From Rhodococcus sp. CH91 (GTDB lineage: Bacteria; Actinomycetota; Actinomycetes; Mycobacteriales; Mycobacteriaceae), in assembly GCF_022554085.1 (NCBI RefSeq), contig NZ_JAKFYR010000002.1, positions 496,001-560,000 on the forward strand: a stretch of DNA of 64,000 bases. The letters are read 5' to 3'. Position 1 is the stretch's first letter. Each line of letters begins with the position of its first letter. The notes below the pieces were generated by a model, which was not told where the DNA came from, did no database searches, and saw nothing but the letters and a program-made list of their open reading frames with translations. Position numbers and translations under genes: made by a program. Below are positions 26,755-37,043 of this stretch, piece after piece.

Positions 26755-26808
26755 ATGGACCTTCGGACGAAGTCCTCCCGCGATCGACATGTCGAGGCAC
26801 GGGCATGA
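26755..26808 (+). CDS. Possible leaderless 17-residue leader peptide coupled to fluC1
   Basis: A short frame, MDLRTKSSRDRHVEARA, starts 6 bases after the TAGCCT -10 box and ends at TGA 26806-26808, which overlaps the fluC1 ATG (26805) as ATGA. No Shine-Dalgarno lies before it, but leaderless translation would not need one; GAGG inside it (26794-26797) could serve fluC1. A hairpin (26757-26775: GGA/TCC and CTTC/GAAG around GGAC) covers its first codons. It may couple translation into fluC1 or be a regulatory leader. Translation is not proven. Confidence 0.4.
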   Translation: MDLRTKSSRDRHVEARA

Positions 26809-27254
26809 GCAGCGGCCGGCCGGCTTATCTCCGGTGGGCCTCGATCGGGCTCGTGGCGATCGGAGGCCTGTTCGGGGCCGGTAGCCGTGAAGGTCTGTCG
26901 CTCGTCATCCCGAAGCTGGGCGAAGTCCCCATCGTGATCGCGATCGTCAACGTCGTCGGCGCGTTTCTTCTCGGCTATCTGTACGAAGCCGTCACCCGGC
27001 TCGACAGTGCGAAGCCCACCGGGAAAAATCTGAAACTTCTCCTCGGAACGGGATACTGCGGTGGTTTCACCACCTACAGTTCCCTCGCGACCGACACCGC
27101 GGTGCTCTTCCGGGACGGATACATCTGGCAGGGGGTGGTGTACGCCCTGGGAACGGTCATCGTCGGTGCGTGTGCCACCTGGGCCGGAATCGCGCTTGCC
27201 AGTAGCGTCAATGCGAGGATGGCGCCGCCCGCCGGAGGAGGGATGACGACGTGA
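26805..27254 (+). CDS. fluC1: Fluoride channel subunit FluC/CrcB (first of pair)
   Basis: Fluc proteins let fluoride leave the cell. This 149-residue subunit has four membrane segments and the family motifs: GGLFGAGSREGL near residue 20, the pore asparagine in VIAIVNVVGAFLLGYL, and GTGYCGGFTTYSSLATDT near residue 82. Two adjacent genes suggest a heterodimer of opposed subunits, as in other Gram-positive bacteria. The stop overlaps the fluC2 GTG. No fluoride riboswitch consensus was found in the leader. Confidence 0.9.
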   Translation: MSSGRPAYLRWASIGLVAIGGLFGAGSREGLSLVIPKLGEVPIVIAIVNVVGAFLLGYLYEAVTRLDSAKPTGKNLKLLLGTGYCGGFTTYSSLATDTAVLFRDGYIWQGVVYALGTVIVGACATWAGIALASSVNARMAPPAGGGMTT

Positions 27255-27628
27255 CGCCGCTCATCTTCATCATGCTGAGTATCGCGGGTGGTGTCGGGGC
27301 GGTTGTGCGGTTCATCGTCGACGGCTTCGTCCGTGCGCACATGACGACGAGGTTCGCGTGGGCGACGACCATCATCAACGTGTCGGGATCGCTCGTCCTC
27401 GGCTTCCTCACCGGCCTCACGGTCGAACATCTCGTCTCCACCGACACGAGCTATGTCATCGGGACCGGATTCCTCGGCGGATACACCACATTCAGTACGG
27501 CGAGTTACGAGACGGTGCAGCTCATCAAGGAACGCCGCTACGGACAATCGTTCATCAGCGGTGTGGTGATGCTGGTGCTCGCTCTGGCAGCGGCAGGACT
27601 CGGGTTGTGGATCGGTACCTCGATCTGA
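27251..27628 (+). CDS. fluC2: Fluoride channel subunit FluC/CrcB (second of pair)
   Basis: A 125-residue second Fluc subunit with GGVGAVVRFIVDG at the start, the pore asparagine in ATTIINVSGSLVLGFL, and GTGFLGGYTTFSTASYET, all matching the family. Four membrane segments are predicted. It begins within the last codon of fluC1 (GTGA overlap), so the two are made together in similar amounts, as a dual-topology heterodimer needs. Confidence 0.92.
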   Translation: MTPLIFIMLSIAGGVGAVVRFIVDGFVRAHMTTRFAWATTIINVSGSLVLGFLTGLTVEHLVSTDTSYVIGTGFLGGYTTFSTASYETVQLIKERRYGQSFISGVVMLVLALAAAGLGLWIGTSI

Positions 27629-27749: not shown

Positions 27750-28676
27750 TCAGGGACGTTCGGCAGCAGGAATGTAGTGCGCGATGACCAGGAACACCCA
27801 CGTCGTGAGGATGTAGGGCCACGTGTAGGTGGGAACGTCGAGGTCGTGCATCACCAGGGTGACCACCGCCGTGACGATGGTGCCGAGCAGCGCAAGGACC
27901 CAGGAGATCACGCTCTCCTTCAAGAAGGTCACCGAGAGCGCGATCGCTGTGAGCACACCGGAATACCCGCTCAGGCCGTTGCCCGTATCGGTGAGACTCT
28001 CACCCAGTGCGAGGGCGCACAGGGTACCGACGACACTTCCGAGAAGACCGGCCAGGCCGACCTTCCAGTTCGCGACGAAGAGACCGATGAGGATGAGTGC
28101 GCCGGCCCAGACGTTGTCGACCAGGACGACTTCGGAGACATTGGTCAGCAACGATCGGAAGAAGGCGACCACGGTCGAGTCGATCGTCATCTGCGACGAC
28201 TCGACCCACCAACGCTCGAAGACGAAATGGATGATGGTCGCGACGATGCAGAACGGTGCTGTCGTCGACGGCAGTGCGTAGGTCTTCAGGGGCGTCTTGG
28301 TGAACAGTTCGTCGACCAACCAGGTGACCGGGGCGGCGAGCGCCCCACCGACCAGCGCGATGGGGTACGAGAACCACTGGCTGCCGAGGGTCGCGAAGGT
28401 TGCCGCACCGACGAGAGCACCGGAGAAACCCTGCATCCCGAAGATCAGGTCGGCCGCTTTCGTCCGGATGACCCACCCGGTGAGGGTCTGTGCCACACAG
28501 CCGATCGCCACGAGTACTGCCATCTGCCAACTGGCGACCACGAAGGCCGCCATGATGAGCAGGGTCGTGTAGATGTTCGCCTGGAAGTAGATCTGCGACG
28601 GACCGTGGCCGAAACCGACGAGCCAGGAGCGAGGCGATCCCATCGACCGGTGGGACTCCGCAGTTCCGGTGGTCAT
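27750..28676 (-). CDS. Urea transporter (UT/SLC14 family)
   Basis: A 308-residue membrane channel-type protein with about ten hydrophobic segments. Recognisable UT blocks occur twice, reflecting the internal repeat: FGMQGFSGALVGAATFATLG in the first half with LPSTTAPFCIVATI, and GNGLSGYSGVLTAIAL in the second. It is the last gene of the urease cluster, 45 bases after ureD, so it very likely imports urea for the enzyme. It ends near the convergent fluC2 gene; no clear terminator was seen in the 121-base gap. Confidence 0.88.
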   Translation of the reverse strand: MTTGTAESHRSMGSPRSWLVGFGHGPSQIYFQANIYTTLLIMAAFVVASWQMAVLVAIGCVAQTLTGWVIRTKAADLIFGMQGFSGALVGAATFATLGSQWFSYPIALVGGALAAPVTWLVDELFTKTPLKTYALPSTTAPFCIVATIIHFVFERWWVESSQMTIDSTVVAFFRSLLTNVSEVVLVDNVWAGALILIGLFVANWKVGLAGLLGSVVGTLCALALGESLTDTGNGLSGYSGVLTAIALSVTFLKESVISWVLALLGTIVTAVVTLVMHDLDVPTYTWPYILTTWVFLVIAHYIPAAERP

Positions 28677-28721: not shown

Positions 28722-29780
28722 TCAGGTCTTGCGGATCGCCGGTGCGGCCGTCCCGGTGAGCATCTCGTGCGCGGCCGCTGCCGCTGCATGATTCGCGCGG
28801 GCCACCGACACCGGATCGTTCGCCAACAGTCGCATCCAGACCCCTGCGTCGTTCGGCAGTGCGCTGATGCCGAACAGCCCGTCGTCGAATGTGGTGGACA
28901 AGGCATCGTGGAGCAGATCGGTGAGGTCGGCGGCGCGAACCCGGGGAGTGAACACGTACAGCATCGCCAGAATGTCGTGCTCCGCCAGCACCCCGAGTTC
29001 CTCTGCTGCCGGCCGATCGTTCGTGCCACCGGGGCGGAGGCGAACCCGGTCGAGCGCGACAAGCCGCCCGTCGGGGCGACGGACTTCGAGGTCGGATGCG
29101 TACACGTCGTATCGATGCCGTTCGTTGCGGGCAAGTCGGCCGGCGTACACGGTTTCCGCGAGCAGCAGGGACGCCGATTCGTCGAGCGTTACCGAGGTGT
29201 GCTGGTATAACCGCGATCCGGCGAACGGAATGACGGCGTCGGGAAGGTACTCGACGTAGGCATCGGATCCGGCCGTGATATGGGTGACGGACGACGCGTA
29301 GTCGTTGTCCATCCGGTACACCCTGGTCTGGGCCTGGGTCGTCACGTGGGCCGAGGTACCGGCCCCGAATGTGAGGTCGGTGCGTAACCGATCTGCTTGC
29401 AGAACGCCACCGCCCGAGGACATCACATAGGTGTACGGAACGTCGGGGCGGAGCGGATCGAAGTACAGCGGGCGCATGATCTGCAGCGGTGACTTCTGGT
29501 AGTGATGCACGAGCTCGGTCCGGTTGCGGGCAGGATTGCGTTCGAAGCCGAGCTGGAGAACCCCCACTTTGCCGGGACTCCCCACGGGAAGAGTCCCGTG
29601 GGGACTGGTGTGTCGGAGAACTTCGTTCGGGACTCGCGCGGGTTCGAAATAGTCGGGTTGCAGCCGGTAGCCGCCCGGATGTCGTGGGTGCACGGGTAGT
29701 GTGCTCACCTCCGCGAGATCCGTGGGCTCGCCCGGGTCGGGACCGATGTGTGCCGACGCCGCCGGGAGGCCGGCTGTCAT
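28722..29780 (-). CDS. ureD: Urease accessory protein UreD (UreH)
   Basis: UreD is the scaffold that binds apo-urease and, with UreF and UreG, helps insert nickel. The 352-residue protein has the family stretch QIMRPLYFDPLRPDVPYTYVMSSGGGVLQADRL, then HVTTQAQTRVYRM and EYLPDAVIPFAGSRLYQ. ATG 29780 overlaps the ureG stop by one base (TGATG), supporting this start over an in-frame one 30 bases upstream. The N-terminal 75 residues (Pro-rich) are longer than in many homologues. Confidence 0.93.
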   Translation of the reverse strand: MTAGLPAASAHIGPDPGEPTDLAEVSTLPVHPRHPGGYRLQPDYFEPARVPNEVLRHTSPHGTLPVGSPGKVGVLQLGFERNPARNRTELVHHYQKSPLQIMRPLYFDPLRPDVPYTYVMSSGGGVLQADRLRTDLTFGAGTSAHVTTQAQTRVYRMDNDYASSVTHITAGSDAYVEYLPDAVIPFAGSRLYQHTSVTLDESASLLLAETVYAGRLARNERHRYDVYASDLEVRRPDGRLVALDRVRLRPGGTNDRPAAEELGVLAEHDILAMLYVFTPRVRAADLTDLLHDALSTTFDDGLFGISALPNDAGVWMRLLANDPVSVARANHAAAAAAHEMLTGTAAPAIRKT

Positions 29781-30412
29781 CAGACGAGTTCCGTTCGCGT
29801 GTCGTTCCACAGTGACAGGATCTGGTCGAGCAACTCGTCGAGTCCCTCCCCGGTGAGAGAATTCGTGAGGACTACCGGACTACCACCTCGGACCCGGTTG
29901 GCGTCGCTCTCCATCACGCCGAGGTCGGTCCGTACGTACTGGGCGATATCGATCTTGTTGATGACCAGGATGTCGCTGTCGGTGATGCCCGGGCCCCGTT
30001 TGCGCGGCATCTTCTCTCCCTCGGCCGTATCGAGGACGAAGATGAAGACGTCCGCCAGTGCGGGTGAGAACGTGAGCGTCAGATTGTCGCCACCCGATTC
30101 GTAGATCAGGGTGTCGACCTCGGGGAATCGGTGCAGAAGTTCTTCACCTGCGGCGAGATTCATCGTGGGGTCGTCGCGTACCGCGGTGTGTGGGCACGCG
30201 CCGGTCTCGACGCCGACCACGCGTTCGGGGTCGAGGATGCCGTCGAGGACTCGCCGCACGTGGTGGGCGTCCTCCTGGGTGTAGATGTCGTTGGTGATGA
30301 CACCGGGGGTGCGCCCTGCCGCGATGAGCAACGGAACGAGCGCCTCGGTCAGCGCGGTCTTGCCGGAGCCTACCGGGCCCCCGACACCGATTCTCAGAAC
30401 ATTGTCAGCCAT
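29780..30412 (-). CDS. ureG: Urease accessory GTPase UreG
   Basis: UreG is the SIMIBI-class GTPase that carries nickel to the UreD-UreF-urease complex. The 210-residue protein has the P-loop GVGGPVGSGKTAL at residues 9-21, the metal-binding CPH motif in VETGACPHTAVRDD, ESGGDNLTLTFSPALAD, and the guanine-specificity NKIDIA. There is no His-rich N-terminal tail of the kind that stores nickel in some UreG and HypB proteins. Confidence 0.97.
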   Translation of the reverse strand: MADNVLRIGVGGPVGSGKTALTEALVPLLIAAGRTPGVITNDIYTQEDAHHVRRVLDGILDPERVVGVETGACPHTAVRDDPTMNLAAGEELLHRFPEVDTLIYESGGDNLTLTFSPALADVFIFVLDTAEGEKMPRKRGPGITDSDILVINKIDIAQYVRTDLGVMESDANRVRGGSPVVLTNSLTGEGLDELLDQILSLWNDTRTELV

Positions 30413-30469: not shown

Positions 30470-31162
30470 TCAACTGGCGAACAGGCGGGCTTCTGCCTTC
30501 TCGTGCTGGGCCGACATGATGTCGGCCATGGGCGCGAACCCGCCGAGATCGTGGAGATCACGTTCGACGGCAGCGTTCGCCACCTGTTCGATCACCGGGC
30601 CGAGCGCGTGCAGAATCACTTGCGAGGTCCGATGATCGGTCAACCGCAGGCGCAACGCAGCGCCCACGAAACTCACTGCGAAGGCGGAGAGATCGGCGGC
30701 GACCGCGATCCGTGTATCGACGCCGGTTGCCGAGTAGATCAACGCCGACACCACAGGCTGGCACCCCGGCGTGGCGCGTGCCTCGAGCCGTTGCCGGTAC
30801 TCCGCCAAGGCGTCGCTACCGAGCACCACGCCGGCGAGGTCGGCGAGTTGATGGCCGCTTCGCGTCGAAGCCCGCCGCATCTCGGCGTTCAGTTTGGAGG
30901 CGAACAGACGATCGTCGACCTCCGCGACGAGATCCCAGTCGCCTGCTCCCGCCGCACGGTGAGCAGCGGCGAGAGCAGTCGCGTCCCCGGGCCCGACAGA
31001 GTGGACGAGCAGGGAACTCAACAGGTCCTGCACGTCGTCGGGCTCGACAAGGCGAGCCTGACTGTAACCCTCGAGTCCGTGCGACATGGTGTAGAAGCCG
31101 CTCGGGAACGCCGAGTCCGCGAACTGCAGACTCGTCAGCAACTGACGGATGTCCGACGTCAC
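30470..31162 (-). CDS. ureF: Urease accessory protein UreF
   Basis: UreF bridges UreD and UreG during urease activation. The 230-residue helical protein has the conserved LQFADSAFPSGFYTMSHGLEGY near the start, and SALIYSATGVDTRIAVAADLSAF and HDLGGFAPMADIMSAQHE near the end. GTG 31162 lies 10 bases after the ureC stop; the upstream open frame runs antisense-free through ureC and is not conserved, so it is rejected. A 57-base gap separates it from ureG. Confidence 0.92.
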   Translation of the reverse strand: MTSDIRQLLTSLQFADSAFPSGFYTMSHGLEGYSQARLVEPDDVQDLLSSLLVHSVGPGDATALAAAHRAAGAGDWDLVAEVDDRLFASKLNAEMRRASTRSGHQLADLAGVVLGSDALAEYRQRLEARATPGCQPVVSALIYSATGVDTRIAVAADLSAFAVSFVGAALRLRLTDHRTSQVILHALGPVIEQVANAAVERDLHDLGGFAPMADIMSAQHEKAEARLFAS

Positions 31163-31172
31163 GTCGTCTCCT

Positions 31173-32897
31173 TCACGCCAGGAAGAACTTCTGGGTGAGT
31201 GGGAGCGATTGCGCAGGATCGATCGCGGCGACCTGTCCGTCGTAGGTGACGTCGTAGGTCTCCGGATCGACTTCGATGGCCGGGGTCGCATTGTTGCGCA
31301 CCATGTGCTGCTTTCCGATATTGCGGCACCGCTTCACCGGCAGTATCCGGCTTTCCAGTCCCAATTTCTCGGGCACGCCGAGGTCGATGGAGGCCTTCGA
31401 CATGAAGGTCGCGCGCGTGGACTGCAATGCCCTGCCCTGCGCACCGAACATGGGCCGGTAGTACACCGGTTGGGGGGTGGGGAGCGATGCGTTAGGTTCA
31501 CCCATGAGACCCCAGTTGATCAGGCCGCCTTTGACGACAACCTTCGGCTTGGCCGCGAAGGAGGTCGTCGGCCACAGCACGATGTCGGCGATCTTTCCTT
31601 CCTCCAGTGACCCGATGTACTCCGAGATCCCCTGTGTGATAGCGGGATTGATGGTCACCTTCGCCAGATAGCGCAATACGCGGAAATTGTCGTTGTCTTC
31701 CGCGTCCTCCGGAAGTTTGCCGCGCTTGTCCTTGCAGTGGTGGGCGATCTGGAATGCGCGCATGAACGACTCGCCGATGCGGCCCATGGCTTGGGAGTCG
31801 GACGACACCATCGAGATGATGCCTTCGTCGTGGAACACGGTTTCGGCGGAGATGGTCTCGGCCCGGACGCGGGAGTCCGCGAATGCGACATCCTCCGGAA
31901 TGTCGTGTGACAGGTGGTGACAGACCATCACCATGTCCAGCAGTTCGTCCACCGAGTTCGCGGTGTAGGGAAGCGTGGGATTCGTGGAGGACGGCAACAC
32001 GTTCGGATGACCCGCGACCTTGATGAGATCCGGTGCGTGTCCTCCACCGGCGCCTTCACTGTGGAAGGTGTGGATCGTCCGGCCGTCGATCGCGTCCAGC
32101 GTGTTCTCGACGAAGCCCGACTCGTTGAGGGTGTCGGTGTGCACCGAGATCTGGACGTCGTAGCGGTCGGCGACGTCGAGTGCGTTGCTGATCGCGGCGG
32201 GTGTGGCCCCGTAATCCTCGTGGACCTTCAAACCTGCTGCGCCGGCCTCGATCTGCTCGCACAGAGCCTCCGGGAGCGACCCGTTCCCCTTCCCGAGGAA
32301 ACCCATGTTGACGGGCATCGCTTCGGCGGATTCCAGCATGCGGTGGAGGTTCCAGACGCCGGGAGTGGTGGTGACACCGTTGGTCCCGTCGGTAGGTCCG
32401 GTACCGCCACCGAAGAGCGTGGTGATGCCGTTCGCCAGTGCGGTCACTCCCTGTTGCGGTGAGATGTAGTGCACGTGGGAATCGAATCCGCCGGGCGTCG
32501 CGATGCAGTGCTCACCTGCGAGTAGCTCGGTACCCGGACCGACGACCAGCCGGGGATCCACCCCGTGCTGAAGATGTGGGTTGCCGGATTTTCCGATCCC
32601 CGCGATCTTTCCGTCCCGAACCCCGATGTCGCCTTTGAGAACGCCGAGTATCGGGTCGAGGATGATCGCGTTCGTGATCACAAGGTCCAGCACGCCCTGG
32701 GCGTCGGTTCCCTGGGGGTCGGCCCCCATCCCGTCGCGTGCGGTCTTGCCGCCACCGTAGACGATTTCGTCGCCGTAATTGCCCTCGTTGAAGTCCTTTT
32801 CGATCTCGATGATCAGGTTGGTGTCGGCCAGGTGAACGCGGTCGCCGGTCGTGGGGCCGAAAAGGTCGGTGTATTGCTTACGTGAGATGATCGCCAT
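31173..32897 (-). CDS. ureC: Urease alpha subunit (catalytic)
   Basis: UreC holds the di-nickel centre that splits urea into ammonia and carbamate. The 574-residue chain shows HVHYISPQQ (Ni histidines), the carbamylated lysine in [36 protein letters not shown] with a further ligand, and the mobile flap [22 protein letters not shown] with the catalytic histidine. No residue expected for activity is missing. It starts at ATG 32897, overlapping the ureB stop by one base. Confidence 0.98.
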
Positions 32898-33322
32898 TAC
32901 TTCGCGCCTTTCTTCTTCTTCGAAGTGCTCGCGCTCTCTCGCGCCTTCGGTGTGCCGTCCTGGTACTCGAGTTCCTTCATGAGTGCCATCGCACGAATCT
33001 TCGTGCCCTCGGAGTCCAAACCGCCGTCGACGAGATTGTTGAAGCCGATGACGTGGCGATTGCCGGCATACGCCACGAGGGTCACCTCGCGTGTGTCACC
33101 CGCTTCGACGCGCACGCTCAGGCCCGAAGGGAGGTCCAGGTGCATGCCGTAGGCGAGTTCGCGGTCGAACAGCAGCGCCTTGTTGACCTCGAAGAAGTGG
33201 AAGTGCGACCCGATCTGGATGGCGCGATCTCCGGTGTTGCTGACCTGCAGTGTCACACTGCGACGCCCCGCGTTGATCTCGATGTCGTCTTCCCTGTGGT
33301 GATATGTGGGCTTGGCTACCAT
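32897..33322 (-). CDS. ureB: Urease beta subunit
   Basis: UreB is a structural subunit of the urease trimer. From ATG 33322 the protein has 141 residues and begins close to the family start; [35 protein letters not shown] and [16 protein letters not shown] are diagnostic. A lysine-rich C-terminus (SKKKKGAK) is an extra. GGAAGGA lies 8 bases before this ATG. The frame is open up to GTG 33439, which would add 39 unconserved residues and overlap the CbiX-like gene; I consider that start less likely. Confidence 0.93.
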
Positions 33323-33380: not shown

Positions 33381-34256
33381 TCAGTGTGAAGAGGCAGTAG
33401 CGGGGTGCCGGTGACTGCGTTCGGTACCGGGATCTTCACCTCCGTGTCCGTGTCCGTGTCCGTGTCCGTGTGTGCTGCCGGTGGAGGCGTCGAATGCGTG
33501 CGAATGTGCGTAACCGTGTCCGTGATCCGCCATCAGTCCGGCCTCGACTCCGGTGCGGCCGTGGGACAGCTCGTGCAAGGCGGTGTGCGCTCGCATGTCG
33601 ACGATGCGGAACATCGCCTGCTCGCTCATCAACGGTCCGTAGAACCTGGATCCGGAAAAGCGTCCGTCGTCCGGGGGGATGGGGTCCTCGCGGCGAAACC
33701 CTGCGGGAACGACGACGGTGTGCGGGTGATCGAGGCGACGGAGCCGTCGTAGAACCTCGGCAAGGTCGTCCTCGGTCCGTGTCGTGGCGACTTCCACGAC
33801 GTTGCCGGCGCCGTGGGTGCGCACCAGATGCGCGATGCGGTGCAGTTCCGCTTCGTCGAAAGGGTCGGACGCGGGGGCCTGGACCACCATCGCAGCATCG
33901 GGCGAGCTGCGGCGAATTGCGGTAGCCGCCGAGCGCAGCCATGCCGTGAGATGGTCGGCGTTACCGAACGGCTCCGCCAGAGCGAGACGCCCGGGCGCTC
34001 CCGCAGCCAGCCACTGGACGGTCTTGGCCGTGTCGGCGACCAGCGTGGGGTTGCGGCCGAGGGTCATGGGCACGACCGTGATCGGGCCGTCGCCGGATTT
34101 CAGGAGGCGCGCCACGAGATTGTGGAGTGGTCGGCCGATCGGGGTGACGAACCAGCCGGGACGAGCCTGTGCGAGGAACCGCACGTCCGCGCCGCCGGCG
34201 CTCTCGTGGCCCGCGACCAGTACGGTCGTGGCGTCTGCCCCGCCGCCGTCCACCAT
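33381..34256 (-). CDS. CbiX-like protein with His-rich tail, inside the urease operon
   Basis: A 291-residue protein with two sirohydrochlorin-chelatase-like (CbiX) halves. The first half has VLVAGHES (His17, a chelatase-type histidine) and [16 protein letters not shown], where a histidine is usual but Arg68-Asn69 occur. The second half ([20 protein letters not shown] onward) repeats the fold. The last 48 residues hold 12 histidines in [10 protein letters not shown], an HG x5 run and SHRHP, resembling the nickel-binding tails of UreE and HypB. It overlaps the ureA stop (TGATG) and precedes ureB; the cluster has no ureE. A nickel-delivery or storage role is inferred; chelatase activity is doubtful. 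Confidence 0.72.
33441..33470 (+). repeat. Hexanucleotide tandem repeat (TCCGTG x5)
   Basis: Five perfect copies of TCCGTG. On the minus strand they encode His-Gly x5 in the tail of the CbiX-like protein. Gain or loss of units changes the protein by two residues without a frameshift, so the nickel-tail length could vary between strains. Confidence 0.85.
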
Positions 34257-34561
34257 CAGCTCCCGATCGGGTCGTGGCAGGACACCAGTTTGCTGCCGTC
34301 GATGAACGTCGCCTCGACCTGCAGCAGCGGCAGCAATTCGCGAACCCCGCTCATGCAGTCCTTCTCGGAAACGATGGTCTTGCCCAGTTCCATGACTTCT
34401 GCGACGGAACGGCCGTCGCGGGCCCCTTCCAGGATCGCCTCGCAGATGAGTGCGGTCGCCTCGCTGGCGTTGAGCTTCGTGCCGCGGTCACGGCGTCGCC
34501 GCGCGATCTCCGCGACCTGGTAGATGTAGAGCTTTTCGATCTCTCGTGGAGTCAAATCCAT
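34256..34561 (-). CDS. ureA: Urease gamma subunit
   Basis: UreA is the small structural subunit. The 101-residue protein matches the full family length: MDLTPREIEKLYIYQVAEIAR, then LNASEATALICEAILEGARDG, a histidine-poor VAEVMELGKTI and LLPLLQVEATFIDGSKLVSCHDPI. ATG 34561 is chosen from the conserved N-terminus; the frame upstream is open but unrelated. It is the first urease gene, transcribed leftward. Confidence 0.96.
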   Translation of the reverse strand: MDLTPREIEKLYIYQVAEIARRRRDRGTKLNASEATALICEAILEGARDGRSVAEVMELGKTIVSEKDCMSGVRELLPLLQVEATFIDGSKLVSCHDPIGS

Positions 34562-34914: not shown

Positions 34915-36540
34915 TTATCCGCTCTCCACCGGCACGACAGTCATCTCGACGAGGTCGTCGCCCAATGCCGACAAGGCGCTCCGCACGGGCGCCAGCGCGT
35001 CCGCCGGGGTCAGGATCTCCGCACGAACCCGTGGGGAGACGTCCAGGGTTCGCTTCTGCCCGCGGACCATCTGATCGACCGAGTCGGTCGTGGTGACGAA
35101 GACTTCGGAGAGTATGGCGCGGCGTGCACCCGCAGCGAGCACCTCCCGTTCCACGCCTGCGGCCCCGGAAGAGTCGAGAACCGCGGTGACCAGGTACACC
35201 TTGTTTCCGGGCTCCATCGGCTTCGGCGCGAGGGCCGAGACCGATCCGTCGGCGGGGTCGGGGGGAGTGGGACCCTCGTGATAGGCGTTCATGCCCTGTT
35301 GGCTGAGATCGAGGTGTTCTTCTTCCTCGGCGCTGACGCGAAGCCCGATCGTCTTCTCGATCGCGAAGCCGATCACCAGGGTGAGTACCAAGGCGTAGAC
35401 GATCACCGCGACCAGTGCGACGACCTGGTAACCCAGCAGTGCCCATCCGCCACCGGCGAACAGTCCGTCTCGGCCGATCGAATTGATGGCCTCTTCACCG
35501 AAGAACCCGACGCACAGCGTGCCGAACACGCCGCCGATGAAGTGGACCGCCAGAACGTCGAGTGCATCATCCACGCGCAGAAGCTTTTTCAGGCCGAGAG
35601 CGACATAACACACCACTCCGGCCAGCGCGCCGATGACCACCGCGGCCCAGGTGTTGACATAACCCGCAGCGGGGGTGATGGTCGCCAGCCCGGCGACCGC
35701 GCCCGTCACACCGCCCAGGACGGTCGAATGACCTTCCCGGTAGCGTTCGATCACCAGCCAGACGAGCATCGCGGCGGCGCCTGCCAACTGGGTGTTGACC
35801 AGGGCTTGGGCCGCAACTCCGTTGGCCTGCAGTCCGTCTCCGGCATTGAAACCGAACCAGCCGAACCAGAGGATGCCCGCGCCCACGATCACCAACGGGA
35901 CCGAGTGCGGCAGTGGCGCGCGGTCGGGTCGTACCTTGCGCCGCCCCAATACGATCAGCAGACCGAGTGCAGCAGCTCCGGCCGAGGAGTGGACGACCAT
36001 TCCGCCGGCCCAGTCCTGTGCTCCCATCTTGGTCAACCAGCCCTCGGGTGCCCACAACCAGTGCGCGACAGGCGCGTACACGATCACCGACCAGATCGCG
36101 ATGAAGACCGCCCACCCCAAGGCCTTGAGGCGATTCGCCACGGCGCCCGTGGCGAGCGCCGGCGTGATGATCGCGAACATCAACTGGTACGCGAAGAAGG
36201 CGAGCGTCGGGATCGCAACGGTTTCGGTCACGACGTGGAGGTCCGGCTTGGGAGCCTCGCCGATATTGGTGAGCGCGACGAAACCGAGATCCGCGATGAT
36301 CCCGTTGCCCCGGTCGTTGCCGAACGCGATACTGTAACCGAACACGAACCAGGTCAGCGAGATGATGCAGAGCCCGACGAGGTTCTGTTGCAACATCACG
36401 AGCGTGTTACGCCTGCTCACCATGCCCGCGTAGAAGAACGCCAGACCCGGTGTCATGAACAGCACGAGGGCCGCACATACCAGCACCCACGCGGTGTCGC
36501 CGCTGTCGATCGCGGCTTGAGCCAGTGTCGTAGAGTTCAT
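34915..36540 (-). CDS. amt: Ammonium transporter with C-terminal PII-like domain
   Basis: A 541-residue Amt/Rh-family channel. Eleven membrane segments cover about residues 10-410, with DTAWVLVCAALVLFMTPGLAFFYAGM, the QDWAGGMVVHSSAGAAAL block and the pore-histidine segments HSSAG and VHFIGG. The last 95 residues (about 447-541) align with PII signal proteins: KVYLVTAVLD, SEVFVT, MVRGQK and SPRVRAEI match the beta strands and T-loop flanks, but the T-loop tyrosine and ATP-binding GK motif are missing. ATG 36540 gives the standard Amt start. It lies upstream of and in the same direction as urease, consistent with ammonium handling. Confidence 0.88.
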   Translation of the reverse strand: MNSTTLAQAAIDSGDTAWVLVCAALVLFMTPGLAFFYAGMVSRRNTLVMLQQNLVGLCIISLTWFVFGYSIAFGNDRGNGIIADLGFVALTNIGEAPKPDLHVVTETVAIPTLAFFAYQLMFAIITPALATGAVANRLKALGWAVFIAIWSVIVYAPVAHWLWAPEGWLTKMGAQDWAGGMVVHSSAGAAALGLLIVLGRRKVRPDRAPLPHSVPLVIVGAGILWFGWFGFNAGDGLQANGVAAQALVNTQLAGAAAMLVWLVIERYREGHSTVLGGVTGAVAGLATITPAAGYVNTWAAVVIGALAGVVCYVALGLKKLLRVDDALDVLAVHFIGGVFGTLCVGFFGEEAINSIGRDGLFAGGGWALLGYQVVALVAVIVYALVLTLVIGFAIEKTIGLRVSAEEEEHLDLSQQGMNAYHEGPTPPDPADGSVSALAPKPMEPGNKVYLVTAVLDSSGAAGVEREVLAAGARRAILSEVFVTTTDSVDQMVRGQKRTLDVSPRVRAEILTPADALAPVRSALSALGDDLVEMTVVPVESG

Positions 36541-37043
36541 CGACGGTCCTGTGCTTTCGGGAGAGGTGTGTGATAGTCCCTGAAGGGGTATGCCGAACAA
36601 GACATTTCGTACTCATGCCGAATCGGGACGTGAAACTGCCGGCTGTGTTCTGTCTGACGGCGATCGACATGCATCCAGCGACCCCCGATCCTCGCATCGG
36701 TCAGTCACGCTTCTCTCGACGCACCGGCAGCGGCAATGTCGCCGGAAGGACGAGACTTGTGGTCCGACGAGAGCATATACACCCTGTTTGTGCGATGCGG
36801 GCAGATCGCGCCAACTCGAATCCCGAATGTGACGCCGTCGCGGACGGATCGCGATGCCGGGGCGTGCCGTTCGTGATGTCAACGACGACCCGGTGAGCCC
36901 GGCACCTTCTTCTGCGCTCGAGTGTTGTACGGAGCGGCGATGTCTCGAAGAAGTGGCGAGCGTCCCGGTCCCAGATCCTCCGTTCTCCGCCGTCGATCTC
37001 GTTCTCCCGCATCTCGGAAGTCGTGTCGCTCTAGACTTGCGCC
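36541..37043. promoter_or_regulatory. Divergent intergenic region between amt and the channel-FUSC gene
   Basis: About 500 bases with no supported gene; the only frames here are short and lack coding character. It must hold the leftward amt promoter and the rightward promoter at 37032. AGGAC about 6 bases before the amt ATG (minus strand) can act as its ribosome site. I searched for GTnAC-N6-GnAAC (GlnR type) spacing around the GTnAC words present and found no good match. Confidence 0.4.
37032..37037 (+). promoter_or_regulatory. Candidate -10 box (TAGACT), leaderless channel-FUSC gene
   Basis: TAGACT ends 6 bases before GTG 37044 and no Shine-Dalgarno sequence is present. This supports both the start and a leaderless transcript. 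Confidence 0.6.

Follow-up and report, generated by a model that had tools for sequence, protein, structure and literature searches.

The subject of this report is a gene in the urease operon of Rhodococcus sp. CH91 that encodes a chelatase-like protein with a histidine-rich tail, and for which the label cbx is coined here. It lies in a stretch of 64,000 nucleotides of contig NZ_JAKFYR010000002.1, and this whole stretch is referred to as the window. On the minus strand, cbx runs over positions 33381..34256, from an ATG start to its stop codon included, and the product has 291 amino acids. All genes of the operon share this strand: an ammonium transporter gene (amt, 34915..36600) is followed by ureA (urease gamma, 34256..34561), cbx, ureB (urease beta, 32897..33322, its start assigned at an ATG), ureC (urease alpha, 31173..32897), ureF (30470..31174, the exact start position not being settled), ureG (29780..30412), ureD (28722..29810), and a urea transporter gene of the UT family (27750..28676). 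UreG has 8 residues before its P-loop and is without a His tail. The junction of ureA and cbx reads GGGAGCTGATGGTG, and one base is common to the stop of the former and the start of the latter. A first-pass annotation, made from the letters alone, had described this open reading frame between ureA and ureB with its TGATG overlap, and had seen no ureE among the operon genes; both observations were borne out, and a search of the whole genome (39 contigs, completeness 100) with the UreE_N profile (PF02814) was also empty, the same search having matched 2 of 14 control genomes.

What kind of protein does cbx encode? The predicted model (predicted local distance difference test, pLDDT, 82; predicted template modelling score, pTM, 0.77) has the bilobal fold of class II chelatases, with CbiK, SirB, and ferrochelatases as its best structural matches, and in this respect the chelatase likeness proposed in the first pass stands. 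At the sequence level, CbiX (PF01903) is the sole Pfam family to match the window protein above its cut-off, and it does so barely (23.9 versus 22 bits, E 5.3e-5), and NCBIfam gives no match up to E 1. CbiX-L, the large cobaltochelatase of cobalamin synthesis, which inserts cobalt into sirohydrochlorin, resembles it both in its two lobes (an alignment of 214 columns, E 2.1e-17) and in its His-rich C-terminal tail. The differences concern the active site. The two catalytic histidines of SirB, CbiK, and CfbA, a pair within one lobe that is characteristic of class II chelatases, align with His17 (codon 34206..34208, minus strand) and Thr71 (codon 34044..34046, minus strand); the first is His in 16 of the 18 cbx members, whereas the second is His in none. 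The loss of a chelatase histidine had thus been recognized correctly in the first pass, which had placed it at Asn69 instead of Thr71. The Glu position of the FIEL motif, Glu43 in SirB, is occupied by Thr38 (assigned by position, with no alignment to SirB), the C-terminal half has no His pair at matching places in the alignments as read by eye, and the Fe-S motif of CbiX-L, MxCxxC, is absent from the window protein, which is without any Cys. New conserved residues are found instead: E18, T65, G67, and R68 occur in all 18 members and S19, G41, and R42 in nearly all, and they sit at strand-to-helix turns, the place of the active site in chelatases.

Could cbx still be a chelatase that inserts metal into a tetrapyrrole, its gene being placed among the urease genes so that it is co-regulated with nitrogen metabolism? 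The predicted fold, the Pfam match, and the retained first histidine would agree with such a role, but the second histidine and the Glu are missing, the C-terminal half offers no His pair, and all 18 loci show the gene linked to urease genes. Moreover, the genome holds two other CbiX-family genes with both catalytic His, adjoining what appear by eye to be sulphate- and nitrite-assimilation genes, and cbx was rejected as the strain's own siroheme chelatase on account of them. Because the catalytic pair of cbx is, as the alignments read, broken, and because these two genes keep theirs, we consider it very unlikely that cbx is a working chelatase.

The tail covers residues 244-291 (33384..33527, minus strand), and the model falls to pLDDT < 50 from residue 247. 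The 12 His reported in the first pass for the last 48 residues were confirmed by count, and the enrichment has a P value of 5.6e-9 against a background of 2.8% His in eight neighbouring operon proteins. A His-rich tail occurs in 18 of 18 members and, counted from its starting motif, spans 16 to 116 residues with 5 to 32 His. This motif, HG(Y/H)AHSH, is one of the most strongly conserved regions of cbx: the 12 members that were aligned all have H247, G248, H251, H253, and H269, and the other six carry variants of the motif. Such conservation bears on a further explanation, namely that cbx acts in assembly or regulation by binding UreA or UreB and not a metal, with the tail as an inherited relic. 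The placement of the gene between ureA and ureB would suit this role, the nearest cbx start codon overlapping the ureA stop or lying within a few bases of it in all 12 loci measured; a relic, however, is not expected to keep its first residues so well, and we regard this explanation as unlikely.

The origin of the tail is another matter. CbiX-L is described with a His-rich C-terminal tail after MxCxxC (PMC7689651, PMC5816740), and of the nine canonical chelatases in our comparison set, seven have the MxCxxC motif and a His-rich tail behind it. The tail was therefore rejected as proof of nickel. It was probably inherited from a CbiX-L-like ancestor and not specially acquired, and this ancestor was probably a bilobal class II chelatase of the cobaltochelatase type. 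In the simplest history, the tail of this ancestor would have been retained while its Fe-S motif and its second catalytic histidine disappeared.

As for relatives of cbx, a scan of named genomes gave four, in Rhodococcus coprophilus, Rhodococcus sp. 105337, Microbacterium sp. ASV49, and Nocardioides sp. zg-DK7169, all with the order ureA-cbx-ureB-ureC-ureF-ureG-ureD-urea transporter; plasmids gave two, in Streptomyces sp. NBC_01237 and Embleya sp. NBC_00896. Among 394 genomes drawn from the class, 77 matched the cbx profile, of which 6 did so strongly (E 1.2e-61 or better), each beside UreC; the other 71 were weak (7e-13 or worse) and were not counted as cbx, and 11 of the 24 weak loci that were fetched proved to be canonical CbiX with both His (filter applied). 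Within one family of the class cbx was found in 8 of 197 genomes, and within the genus in 3 of 18. Misses in these searches are no proof of absence, since only a few first-look candidates are scored per genome (6 for cbx and 15 for UreE in the class, 12 in the family). UreC was present in 11 of the 18 genus genomes: in the three with cbx it is 94-100% identical to that of the window, and in the eight without cbx the identity is 52-53%, a split which ties cbx to one kind of urease and not to the genus. The cbx tree itself is poorly resolved, with 4 of its 15 inner branches starred. No link between CbiX and urease operons was found in the literature, as far as open PMC papers are concerned.

Urease loci were compared for their accessory genes. 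Of the 117 that were read in detail, cbx is present in 18 and ureE in 16; no locus has both, and in the other 83 neither gene occurs within the fetched stretch. In the cbx genomes (16 genomes under 17 handles, the plasmid carriers being outside the test), UreE never passed the cut-off and gave chance matches only, at E 0.017 or worse. The UreC tree is the most informative result. A single clade (support 100/99) contains the 16 cbx ureases, and those of Hafnia alvei, Microvirga lotononidis, and Roseomonas marmotae join it (100/100); these three operons carry ureE, and their UreE proteins have long His-rich tails. ureE is present as well in the five ureases of the group that follows, whose support is weaker (95/76), and 38 of the 46 rows with neither gene form a clade of their own. 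Three loci that were partial or long (L049, L052, L196) and two that yielded no UreC (L158, L164) were kept out of the tree, and the loci with neither gene from the class draw were thinned to one in three; in an earlier tree of 74 rows, with L049 and L052 included, the cbx ureases likewise fell into one clade, and the closest row beyond it was Microvirga. The gene order is consistent with this picture: Hafnia has ureA-ureB-ureC-ureE-ureF-ureG-ureD-yut, the window has ureA-cbx-ureB-ureC-ureF-ureG-ureD-yut, and the two are the same apart from the exchange of ureE for cbx. As far as sequence comparison can tell, tree and gene order together are the trace expected from the swap of one accessory gene for an unrelated one. 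As a side observation, the "hypothetical protein" encoded in the Roseomonas marmotae urease operon (L174:7581-8234) is a UreE with a long His-rich tail (PF02814 2.2e-16, PF05194).

UreE (PF02814/PF05194), the nickel chaperone of urease, which binds Ni(II) and delivers it to UreG, can be compared with cbx. Both are encoded in urease operons and both have a His-rich C-terminal tail, in UreE a frequent and variable feature, but cbx has no match to the UreE families and its predicted fold is that of a class II chelatase. The GNxH-type dimer-interface motif of UreE, as defined in PMC13044922, is not conserved in the cbx alignment as read by eye. The same paper also states that the tail of Klebsiella UreE adds capacity and is not needed for activation, a point that would favour cbx as a store or buffer of nickel (or cobalt), in which the tail sequesters metal for an abundant urease, as in Hpn-like proteins, and the folded part is a mere carrier. 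The wide variation in tail length and His number points in the same direction. The folded part, however, keeps conserved residues of its own where the old pocket was and is, by the substitution pattern, under purifying selection: comparisons of cbx with two Rhodococcus relatives both give a ratio of nonsynonymous to synonymous substitution rates (Ka/Ks) of 0.22. Its divergence also keeps pace with that of UreC, with a correlation of 0.83 between the distances of the two proteins (120 pairs). Because a pure store is not expected to keep its domain in this way, we find the storage role doubtful, if worth keeping in mind.

The reading that we favour, and hold to be fairly probable, is that cbx encodes a urease accessory protein, derived from a chelatase and presumed to bind nickel, that replaced UreE in one actinobacterial urease lineage. 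It stands on the predicted fold, the missing catalytic histidine, the kept tail, the linkage to urease, and the tree, where cbx and ureE change places; from these we infer that the metal is nickel, that the protein contacts UreG, and that cbx is needed at low nickel. The protein would have lost the second catalytic His and MxCxxC, and would have kept and specialised its His-rich tail. This flexible tail would capture Ni(II), and the folded part, with its new conserved residues, would dock to UreG or pass the metal to it; UreG together with UreF and UreD would then load UreC, as happens with UreE elsewhere. A more specific scenario is offered tentatively, as it is slightly easier to doubt than to accept: the displacement of UreE was a single event at the base of one clade of ureases in actinobacteria, and the protein that displaced it is a nickel metallochaperone remade from a retired class II chelatase, whose rebuilt pocket, loaded by the inherited His tail, hands nickel to a tail-less UreG.

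Several points weigh against a replacement of UreE by cbx. The first concerns the absence of ureE, from which the first-pass annotation had argued. UreC was found in 181 of the 394 class-draw genomes (178 over cut-off), and UreE over cut-off in only 9, all among these 181; of the remaining 172, 166 are without cbx too. UreE is therefore missing from most actinobacterial ureases, cbx or no cbx, and its absence was rejected as proof of replacement. The replacement that the first pass had proposed accordingly keeps its chelatase origin and gains the fold, the lost histidine, the UreC tree, and the gene order in its favour, while its argument from the missing ureE is weak; the survey of cbx against ureE that it had suggested gave no locus with both genes, together with a majority of ureE-less loci that are also without cbx.

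Do these other ureases have a His-rich stretch elsewhere? Counted over the last 30 residues before the P-loop, in a set of 103 loci slightly different from the 117 above, the start of UreG in the 83 loci with neither gene holds at least three His in 39, two in 6, and at most one in 29, and UreG was not found in 9. A UreG of this kind resembles cbx as another His-rich stretch in ureases without UreE, and differs in that the tail is on the GTPase itself and mostly in a different urease clade. Full complementarity of cbx, ureE, and the UreG tail was tested and is incomplete, since 29 of the 74 loci with a UreG have at most one His; given these loci and the commonness of ureases with neither UreE nor cbx, replacement seems not to be obligatory. 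Single loci complicate the count further: L040 is the cbx exception with a His-rich UreG start, which depends on an upstream start codon, and the ureE locus L053 has three His there as well. L052, counted with neither gene, has ureE by a later profile, and L051, counted likewise, has UreE on another contig of its genome. Across the loci with neither gene (L051-L138), a His-rich beginning of UreG is frequent.

The remaining objections are of various kinds. Pfam CbiX matches 9 of 12 cbx members at E <= 0.1, and no chelatase was retrieved when solved structures were searched with a sequence profile (best E 0.87). The tail, common as it is in CbiX-L, may be a leftover, and that of CbiX-L is dispensable for cobalt insertion according to PMC7689651. 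The UreC tree is rooted at the midpoint only, and cbx is located between ureA and ureB and not at the place of ureE after ureC. Rubrobacter and relatives, eight nearby rows, have neither gene in the stretches read, of which at least two are cut by contig or record ends, the genomes not having been searched for UreE. In L158, ureA-cbx and a short ureB piece are retained and no UreC was found in the single-contig genome; this is most likely a urease operon in decay. Finally, the ammonium transporter, also upstream in two further Rhodococcus loci (L002, L003), lies upstream of ureA in Hafnia too, in the opposite orientation; because of this inversion, and because the Microbacterium and Nocardioides operons (L004, L005) have no detected copy nearby, it was given no weight as synteny.

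Beside the urease operon of the window is a pair of CrcB-like fluoride exporter genes (26805-27628, plus strand). When the fetched flanks were examined, CrcB-like matches turned up at 9 of the 18 cbx loci, 1 of the 22 ureE loci, and 0 of the 63 other urease loci (flank lengths were unequal and positions were not checked individually), and the sole ureE locus is that of Roseomonas, where the match lies between ureC and ureE. Fluoride inhibits urease, so the association with cbx loci may be meaningful. In the urease operon of Deinococcus aquaticus (L166:5765-7247), hypA, hypB, and ureE lie between ureC and ureF.

How ureases without UreE are supplied with nickel is a question that cbx makes testable. 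It provides a defined family with an exchange indicated by the tree, and the related Hafnia operon, in which UreE is retained, offers a control. If the favoured reading is true, a metal-inserting enzyme was turned into a metal-delivering protein, a change that would bear on the origin of metallochaperones.
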